A stretch of 64,000 nt of DNA from an uncultured Paracoccaceae bacterium. GTDB taxonomy: Bacteria; Pseudomonadota; Alphaproteobacteria; Rhodobacterales; Rhodobacteraceae. The notes beneath the pieces are model-generated. The model was not told the DNA's origin and ran no database searches. It was given only the letters and a program-made list of their open reading frames with translations. Shown piece after piece: positions 1,977 to 62,773 of this stretch; position 1 is the first letter of the stretch, and each line of letters opens with the position of its first letter. Made by a program: the position numbers and the translations under genes. Location: the NCBI GenBank assembly GCA_938016515.1, contig CALILP010000068.1, positions 1 through 64,000 on the forward strand. Reading direction: 5' to 3'.

Positions 1977-2246
1977 CCAGGGTCTGTGGACATTCACGCG
2001 GCACTACTGGTCACAGTCCAAAATTGCTCAGTTTCAGGCAAGAGAGCGTAGGACTAGAGGGCGCATTCAAGCTATCTTTGCGACGAAATGGGCAATTTTG
2101 GCGAAATCCGCAAAGACGCGGCCTATTTTCCTTCCGACTTCACGAAATTGAGCCTGCGATGAACCGCATCGCGTCGCTCAATTTCGTTTGTCAGCAGGAA
2201 AATGGACCTCGCCCAGTGGTGCATCGTGAATGTCCACAGGCCCTAG
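1977..2246. mobile_element. MITE-like non-autonomous element with ~35-bp imperfect terminal inverted repeats
   Basis: Left end CCAGGGTCTGTGGACATTCACGCGGCACTACTGG matches the reverse complement of right end CCCAGTGGTGCATCGTGAATGTCCACAGGCCCTAG; no intact transposase ORF inside; right end related to the 61818-61880 hairpin. Confidence 0.7.
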
Positions 2247-3031
2247 TCCTCAACGTCTGCGAAAATGTTGTCCTTCTCGACAAAATCAAACCGGCTTTCT
2301 TCGACCTCATCGGTGTTCATATCGTGCACTTGCACCTTCCCGTCGCCAAAACCAATCACCACGGTGTCACAAATGTCGATAAATAAGCCGTTTTCCACGA
2401 TGCCCGGAATCTGGTTCAATACGATGCTAAGCTGTCGTGCGTCGCCGATCCGGTTGAGGTGAAGGTCAAGGATGTGGTTGCCTTCGTCGGTCACGTAAGG
2501 CGCATCACCGTTCATGCGCAAACTGGTGGTCCGCCCCAGAACATCCATCCCAATCAGGGCTTCTTCGACCAGTGCTTTAGATGTCTGCCAGCCAAAGGGA
2601 ATGACCTCAATCGGCAGTGGGAAGGCGCCAAGTGTTTCGACTTTCTTAGAAGCGTCAGCGATCACCACCATCCGCTCTGAGGCGGTCGCCACGATCTTTT
2701 CTTGCAAAAGCGCACCGCCCCCACCTTTGATCAGGTTCAGTTCAGCGTCGTATTCATCCGCACCGTCGATGGTCAAATCAAGTGATTTCGCTTCATCAAG
2801 TGAAATCACCTCGATGCCCACGTCCTTCGCCAATTGCGCTGTGCGGCTGGATGTCGGCACCCCTTTGATTTGCAAGCCCTCGTCGCGGATCATTTCGCCC
2901 AAACACTGGACCAGCCATGCTGCGGTGGACCCAGTCCCAAGCCCAACTTTCATGCCAGACCGCACGTATTGCGCAGCACGTTTGGCTGCGACGAATTTTG
3001 CGCGATCAATTGGGGACAAGTCGGTGTTCAT
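2243..3031 (-). CDS. rpiA: Ribose-5-phosphate isomerase A
   Basis: VGLGTGSTAAWLV, DGADE and KGGGGALLQEKIV motifs; start MNTDLSPIDRAKFVAAKRAA. Confidence 0.95.
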   Translation of the reverse strand: MNTDLSPIDRAKFVAAKRAAQYVRSGMKVGLGTGSTAAWLVQCLGEMIRDEGLQIKGVPTSSRTAQLAKDVGIEVISLDEAKSLDLTIDGADEYDAELNLIKGGGGALLQEKIVATASERMVVIADASKKVETLGAFPLPIEVIPFGWQTSKALVEEALIGMDVLGRTTSLRMNGDAPYVTDEGNHILDLHLNRIGDARQLSIVLNQIPGIVENGLFIDICDTVVIGFGDGKVQVHDMNTDEVEESRFDFVEKDNIFADVED

Positions 3032-61817: not shown

Positions 61818-61880
61818 CTAAGGCCCGTAGACAATCACGCTGCGCCACAGTGGTGCATCGTGATTGTCTACAGGCCTTAG
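61818..61880. mobile_element. 63-bp hairpin of two abutting terminal inverted repeats
   Basis: CTAAGGCCCGTAGACAATCACGCTGCGCCAC-a-GTGGTGCATCGTGATTGTCTACAGGCCTTAG; 28/31 paired; related to the ends of 1977-2246. Confidence 0.8.
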
Positions 61881-62773
61881 CCCTTTCGCGGATACCGCAC
61901 ATAGGCGAATTGCCTGCTGTCTGGTGCCCAAGAATTCACGTTGATACTGCCCTGCCCCCCATTGAACTGGTCAATATCGCAAATCGCTGTCCCATCCGGC
62001 CCCATCACCCGCAGGATCACATCCTTGTCCGCTGGGTGTCCTTGTGTCCCTGCTGGAAATGAGATGTAGCTGAAGATTGTCCCATCCGGGGCCGCGTGCG
62101 GAAACCAATTGACCCGCGCGTCGTCGGTCAATCGCTCAACCCCAGTGCCATCGGGGCGCATCCGAAATATCTGCGCATGTCCCGGCACGGTCGCAGCAGC
62201 TTCTGAGTTGAAATAGATCCATGCCCCGTCAGCTGTAAATTCCGGCCCATCTACGGGACAGCGGCCATCAGTCAGGATCGTGTCGACCCCGCCTGTTGCC
62301 GGGATCGTGCAAATGCGCGTCACTGTTTGCCCGGCCTGCATTTCTAAACCTACGTAGGTCAGTGTCAGACCGTCAGGCGACACGCCGTGCAGGTAGTACC
62401 GAAACCCGCGCGCCGGGTCATGATCGTTCGAGATACGGCGCGGCGCCCCTCCGGACAGGGCACACACATAGAGGTGCCCGTCGTTGGCGCTAAGATAGAT
62501 GTGTTTCCCGTCGGGGGCCAAAACATGGTCGTTGTTTAGGTCTTCGACAGTGCCCGTGTTGATCCGGTGCGGCCCGTCTTGTCCGTCAGGCGAAATCCGA
62601 AAAATCCGCCCATCCGCGTTGTAGATCAGCCATTTGCCGTCAAGTGTCCAATTCGGAGCCTCAATCAGCTCGCCAGTTTCATAAATGACTGTGACCTTAG
62701 CCCCATCACGGCTGGCCACCACCAGTTCGCTGACCTGATCCGGGGTAAGCCTGCGAAACCGTCGTGGCCTCAC
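61877..62773 (-). CDS. TolB-like beta-propeller (PD40 repeat) protein
   Basis: APNWTLDGKWLIYNADGRIFRISPDGQ; GPEFTADGAWIYFNSEAAATVPGHAQIFRMRPDGTGVERLTDD. Confidence 0.88.
   Translation of the reverse strand: MRPRRFRRLTPDQVSELVVASRDGAKVTVIYETGELIEAPNWTLDGKWLIYNADGRIFRISPDGQDGPHRINTGTVEDLNNDHVLAPDGKHIYLSANDGHLYVCALSGGAPRRISNDHDPARGFRYYLHGVSPDGLTLTYVGLEMQAGQTVTRICTIPATGGVDTILTDGRCPVDGPEFTADGAWIYFNSEAAATVPGHAQIFRMRPDGTGVERLTDDARVNWFPHAAPDGTIFSYISFPAGTQGHPADKDVILRVMGPDGTAICDIDQFNGGQGSINVNSWAPDSRQFAYVRYPRKG

Follow-up and report, generated by a model that had tools for sequence, protein, structure and literature searches.

MITEs are usually viewed as decayed insertion sequence (IS) ends around arbitrary filler, and derivation of the interior from the IS by deletion holds for many of them, although not for all. 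REP and REPIN sequences, which go with a RAYT transposase, are non-autonomous and intergenic, and consist of an inverted pair of imperfect hairpins. RUP of Streptococcus pneumoniae is a MITE of IS630-Spn1, and CIR elements have been described in Caulobacter and Brucella (PMC2229807). For ERIC, the mechanism of transfer was described in 2007 as not elucidated, and Vibrio repeats related to ERIC have been mentioned (PMC2759123). Finally, ISPam4 is listed under IS5/IS427, its DR being 2 bp long (PMC3281130).

The element considered here lies next to rpiA in a 64,000-nt stretch of DNA from an uncultured Paracoccaceae bacterium, referred to as the window. Like RUP, it is miniature, has terminal inverted repeats (TIRs) in common with an IS, and targets TA; RUP differs in being 107 bp long and in having a single partner IS, which belongs to the IS630 rather than the IS5 family. 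We know of no structured core in RUP that is shared between end types. CIR elements resemble ours in that they are alphaproteobacterial and intergenic, with two inverted-repeat arms and a linker, but they lack a TIR and display GANTC at a terminal loop. Because TIRs are present in the window copy, and GANTC was not found there, it was rejected as a CIR element. REP/REPIN resembles the element in the hairpin pair, but here the pair is enclosed by TIRs of the IS427 type and accompanied by a TA duplication. IS427-group ISs, e.g., ISPam4, share with the element the terminal repeats and the 2-bp duplication of TA; the element differs in lacking a transposase, in its length, which for the family is ~264-306 bp as a rule, and in its unrelated interior. 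In contrast to the usual view of MITEs, the filler is conserved in this case and the ends are exchangeable. Very probably, this is an IS427-mobilised miniature transposon that sits at stop codons, and that carries a separate conserved hairpin module whose ends have been exchanged.

The element spans positions 1980-2243 (264 nt, plus strand in the orientation that places hairpin 1 first), as delimited by its arms, its fold and its homologues elsewhere. On the right it is followed by the target-site TA (2244-2245); on the left, the remnant of the target site (1978-1979) reads CA instead of the expected TA, that is, one base has decayed. The left flank of other copies is mostly TA, with one-base decay in some. 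The outermost ~15-17 nt of the left outer arm (1980-2013, plus strand) match the ends of IS427-group ISs, and the right outer arm occupies 2211-2243 on the same strand. The ends of this copy are GGG(T/C)CTGTGGAC; the outer end GTGAWTGTCYACAGGCC occurs five times in the window at up to 3 mismatches, against 0.66 expected, and 0 of 100 shuffles gave a count as high. Between the arms, hairpin 1 (2017-2101, plus strand) is matched at 2017-2122 with 98.6 bits by R1, a covariance model of this first internal hairpin, and has the internal-loop motifs CAGGC/GACG and GTAGGA/TTCAAG. The fold then shows a small linker hairpin, CCGC-AAAGAC-GCGG (2108-2121, plus strand), followed by hairpin 2 (2117-2211, minus strand), which corresponds to hairpin 1 in inverted and diverged form.

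An earlier note on this DNA had described imperfect TIRs around an interior with no intact transposase, and a nested hairpin at 2143-2186. Both descriptions are borne out. The inverted arms (1979-2020 and 2203-2244) are 81% complementary over 42 nt, and the longest stop-to-stop frame within the element has only 87 codons, so that the element contains no transposase gene; the nested hairpin corresponds to perfect 12-nt arms at 2142-2153 and 2176-2187, within hairpin 2. Folded as RNA, the whole element reaches -132.7 kcal/mol (z = -10.7, against 200 shuffles), and the core without the arms (2014-2210) reaches -75.9 (z = -5.2). No promoter-like site was found between 1800 and 2400. The sequence at 1980-2243 is confirmed as a non-autonomous transposon between two target-site TAs, of which the left one has decayed to CA.

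In the rest of the genus, a DNA search returned homologues that lie at unrelated genes and share 68-76% identity with the element over 210-270 bp. R1 detected copies in 11 of the 57 genomes of the genus and, in the order, in 10 of the 125 genera sampled, and a pattern scan yielded many copies in Sulfitobacter (sp. EhC04 and DFL-14) and in Planktotalea, Pseudaestuariivita, Pacificoceanicola, Pelagimonas and others. Versions of 363-371 bp (L278, L276, L241 and L265, in Sulfitobacter EhC04 and DFL-14) contain an extra stretch within hairpin 1, which is common to the two genomes and occurs with different end types. Blastn found no copies of the window element on plasmids or phages; a sister subfamily, type C, was found on Phaeobacter and Pseudosulfitobacter plasmids. 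On the Pseudosulfitobacter plasmid pDSM107133_a (L332), type C ends enclose a more diverged core at several places, unannotated, and R1 matches the hairpin tip only (E = 1.7e-4). The family is widespread and, as far as we found, unnamed in the open literature: in open-access papers we found no Roseobacter element of this kind.

Recent mobility is evident in these relatives. One genome, G043, holds seven type C copies of 266 bp (both TAs included), 97-99% identical to the query copy. When the flanks of these and further copies are joined, they align to sites of sister species. Nine such empty-site pairs were displayed, and six are ungapped across the junction (L359/L376, L356/L386, L360/L377, and L364 versus L378, L396 and L379). 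Five of the six keep a single TA at the junction, and the L376 pair differs by one base; the three L363 pairs are more diverged, and two of them are gapped. The relatives have therefore transposed with a 2-bp duplication of TA. Their targets have the form YTAR in 59 of 63 copies and in all 20 type C copies (79 of 83 altogether). The window copy probably moved in the same way; its own duplication is hidden by the decayed left TA, the evidence for duplication comes from the relatives, and no relative with both flanking genes was found that could serve as its empty-site counterpart. Directly after one type C copy in G043 (L357, C4:295871-296139) stands a second element end (gggtcctgaccctag), which suggests a tandem or nested insertion at the CTAG that the first had created. 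In G008:C2, near 3539464 (L327) and 3441671 (L320), two IS5-family ISs each directly adjoin a type C element end at CTAG, and the ends made by one insertion appear to serve there as targets for the next.

The candidate source of the transposase is indicated by the ends. An 847-bp IS (L066) with two ORFs (PF13340 and PF01609) carries type A ends, the end type of the window copy, and so does a locus with an annotated IS5 transposase on a Sulfitobacter plasmid (L331); the last 17 nt of the window's right arm are identical to the ends of both (17/17). Type A ends match IS5-annotated elements at up to 17/17 or 20/21 positions. The ends of ISPam4 are of type C (19 bp, 89%), the IS at L327 carries a third end type, T, and on a Paracoccus saliphilus plasmid type B-like ends lie, as judged by eye, beside an apparent transposase start. 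The proposal in the earlier note, a non-autonomous transposon that targets YTAR/TA in the manner of the IS5 family, agrees with the TIR identity and with the TA duplication at the relatives' empty sites, and on these matches the assignment can be narrowed, within the IS5 family, to the IS427 group. We propose that an IS427-group transposase, acting in trans, would recognise the outer ~20 bp, and that insertion into YTAR would duplicate the TA. No match to PF13340 was found in the assembly that holds the window (G000; 3.43 Mb, 227 contigs, 81% complete), so the partner of the window copy is absent or unassembled there. A partner in the same genome is not strictly defining, because partners are often lost or unassembled.

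These ends, the absence of an ORF, the multiple copies and the TA duplication are all what would be expected of an ordinary MITE, the remnant of a single IS after internal deletion, with a non-functional interior whose hairpins are by-products of palindromic DNA. We consider this unlikely, for the core has no similarity to ISs and is common to copies with different IS ends. In blastn comparisons, similarity between element and IS is confined to the terminal 15-23 bp, and the hairpin model finds nothing in the IS loci; an origin of the interior by deletion of an IS was rejected on both grounds. Cores of close relatives carry different ends, and the two ends of each copy match one another. EhC04a and EhC04b (type A) have cores nearly identical to those of DFL14a and DFL14b (type T), and within a single genome the cores of G048b and G048c are 91% identical while their ends are 17% identical (a few end registers in this comparison are shifted by some bases, but on inspection the types clearly differ). 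Mapped on a tree of 45 cores, end type must have changed 14 times or more, where 5 changes would be the minimum; this count is approximate, the tree having modest support, and the pairs just named carry more weight. Between types A and T, only three of the first eleven bases differ, and a concerted point change could be an alternative for that pair; A2 and B are unrelated sequences. Several end types match different IS427-group ISs. Comparison of the copies shows that terminal repeats have been exchanged to suit different IS transposases while the core persisted. With a conserved core and swappable ends, both the role of the core and the switching of transposases by non-autonomous elements become testable.

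Hairpin 1, in the core, lies outside the terminal repeats. Across 53 copies, 95.7% of the cells pair and 24 of the 31 pairs show two-sided changes, a result that 0 of 500 shuffles reach. Searches of the class and the phylum recovered hairpin 1 in additional families, also beyond the class, as a rule in multiple copies; the ends are quite different there and mostly flanked by TA. In 23 distant copies, two-sided changes occur in 30 of the 31 pairs (score 0.917, against 0.230 when shuffled), and AGG, G.AGGAA, TTC.AG and ACGC are kept in or beside the internal loops; the two internal-loop motifs of hairpin 1 are retained across the phylum. The alignments were fitted to the model and lean towards its structure, but the effect size and the slid controls argue that the covariation is real. 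A core that covaries, with internal-loop motifs conserved across many families, also speaks against an ordinary MITE. The earlier interpretation as an IS5-like non-autonomous element stands, but it had overlooked what is inside: two covarying hairpins, inverted to each other and conserved, found phylum-wide. The relationship within this pair is seen in other copies, as the second hairpin matches R1 on the opposite strand in L433, L437 and L443, and aligns with hairpin 1 at 47-55% in G489, G008 and Pacificoceanicola. In the window copy the figure is 37%, too diverged to show inverted homology alone. The ancestor thus seems to have been built as a TIR, a hairpin, an inverted hairpin and a second TIR. 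According to our preferred reading, the interior is a separate module of two homologous imperfect hairpins in inverted order, so that each strand holds one of them in its own sense; by comparison of copies, this module has kept its structure and loop motifs across Pseudomonadota, with its ends swapped to match IS transposases.

Pairing could also be kept by quasi-palindrome correction at the DNA level, through template switching in the hairpin, rather than by selection for structure. Such correction would explain why both ends of a copy change jointly, as is seen in concert in our comparisons, and it is in line with outer arms that are nearly perfect over ~33 bp, longer than the ~20 bp common to ISs, and with outer-stem mismatches that show no strand preference (32 GT versus 31 AC oppositions). 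However, it should erase the conserved mismatches and internal loops of hairpin 1, together with its two conserved G.U columns, which are present in 45 and 41 of the 53 copies. We hold this explanation to be possible, though on balance doubtful. The oppositions within hairpin 1 are skewed, with 39 G.T versus 11 A.C, counts to be read with the copies being related and the structure having been chosen on that strand; the asymmetry in hairpin 2 is ambiguous. Such a pattern is in keeping with hairpin 1 working as a single strand, on one of the two strands, and with the ends working as double-stranded DNA. A strand preference of the whole element, measured by free energy, was not significant (p = 0.14); asymmetry emerged only from counts made per hairpin. 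A single-stranded function of the hairpins, as RNA or ssDNA, fits best, and we infer that the hairpin most likely acts in this form and would be recognised by a factor of the host or of the element. The window contains no match to a known structured RNA at the gathering score of Rfam 15; below threshold, one chance-level miRNA match fell on the element, and nothing else.

The gene rpiA (2243-3031, minus strand) encodes 262 aa from the ATG at 3031, and its C-terminus, ...FADVED, is as long as in relatives. Its TAG stop (2245-2243, minus strand) consists of the TA at 2244-2245 and the terminal base of the element, C2243; the earlier note was correct that the end of the element supplies this codon, the ORF ending at 2243. 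Among the closest relatives, the length of the C-terminus is equal with and without the element, and therefore the insertion hit the rpiA stop codon itself. While rpiA is present in all 57 genus genomes, the element is absent downstream of it in all 27 other readable loci of the genus (L091 and L096, unreadable, were left out), and mostly another gene follows directly. This absence, together with the presence of the element at unrelated genes and the lack of a U-tract adjoining the arms, makes it very improbable that the element is a cis-acting structured RNA, i.e., a terminator or 3'UTR element of rpiA or its neighbour, well as that would suit a very stable fold between two convergent genes; an RNA specific to rpiA is refuted by the absence at the relatives' rpiA. 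The earlier note had held that conservation of these 270 bp at rpiA in distant genera, with compensatory changes, would suggest a structured RNA. Compensatory changes were found, in mobile copies at unrelated sites; conservation at rpiA was not. A scan for intrinsic terminators returned two weak sites, against 0.8 expected, neither of them formed by the outer arms; the one at 2215-2203 (minus strand) is located at the base of the core. Inserted copies may have a terminator effect in general.

The position at a stop codon is not particular to rpiA. In 39 of the 63 clear-ended copies, an ORF stop is made up of the boundary TA and the first base of the element, on both sides in 10 of them, compared with 58 of 257 other YTAR sites in the same flanks (Fisher p = 9e-9). 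With a further 11 of the 20 type C copies, 50 of 83 lie exactly on an ORF stop, versus 23% of other nearby YTAR sites. These fractions are approximate, as ORFs were called by length, without a gene finder (at least 100 codons for the 63 copies, and 80 codons for the 20 of type C). No orientation bias relative to the flanking gene was apparent when the table was inspected by eye. An in-frame TAR always reads as a stop, and the element begins with G whichever strand is read; insertion therefore regenerates TAG. Since YTAR is its own reverse complement, TA|G restores the stop for genes arriving from either side. Insertions at stop codons would thus be harmless on whichever strand holds the gene and would pile up, which would be why rpiA ends inside the element, and the excess probably reflects purifying selection against other insertions. 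A YTAR target and a leading G that together yield TAG provide a simple account of harmless transposon insertion at gene ends, on either strand.

Four places in G000 are related to the family: the element at rpiA, and three copies consisting of the ends only (~57-60 bp), each between two TAs. The arms that the earlier note had assigned to the same family at 61818-61880 prove to be one of the three, a 57-nt palindrome at 61821-61877 between the TA at 61819-61820 and that at 61878-61879. An ORF at 61877-62773 (minus strand) takes its TAA stop from the end of this copy. The others are at C222:1311-1369 and C88:41674-41733. The inner arms of these copies run past the IS-like part and agree there in sequence with the window copy (97% over 34 bp for C222), and therefore they look like family relatives from which the core is missing. 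An ABC transporter ATPase owes its TAG stop to the copy in C222 (L040); the reconstructed empty site reads TAT there, and the insertion may have truncated this gene.

Beyond the class, the family raises the question of ERIC. ERIC (also IRU or RU-1) is, like the family, a TA-ended folded intergenic repeat, and some gammaproteobacterial members of the family share its TATACCC ends. ERIC is, however, 127 bp long with one hairpin, whereas the family has an inverted pair. The ERIC query gave ~12 matches per E. coli genome, and real ERIC copies were used for the comparison. The window copy itself is not ERIC/IRU, for it has 264 nt and is not a ~127-bp unit with TATACCC/GGGTATA ends; its TIR compared with ERIC gave p = 0.43-0.97, and its ends are unlike those of ERIC. 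TATACCC...GGGTATA ends were found in Vibrio campbellii (L445) and in L435, L436 and L441, all outside the class. The end of L435 matches one real ERIC at 23 of 32 positions, which 0 of 2000 shuffles equalled, and other ERICs gave weak matches or none. On four ERIC loci, the best R1 match overlapping ERIC was not significant (E = 0.12), with AAGG/AACGC in register; in this alignment the base of the ERIC stem has an AAGGC/AACGC-like loop. Kinship with ERIC is therefore a lead and not proof. It is conceivable, though we put it forward tentatively and think it rather less probable than not, that the family represents phylum-wide mobile structured modules, inverted hairpin pairs with a conserved function as ssRNA or ssDNA, which persist by acquiring, time and again, the ends of the TA-targeting IS then active in the host, and that ERIC is a reduced member. 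If the link to ERIC were true, an old orphan typing repeat would be placed in a family and would also gain a candidate type of mobiliser. The Vibrio members may have been seen earlier under another name; L445, in Vibrio campbellii NZ_CP050465.1 around 133171-133408, is a 267-bp member with TATACCC ends.
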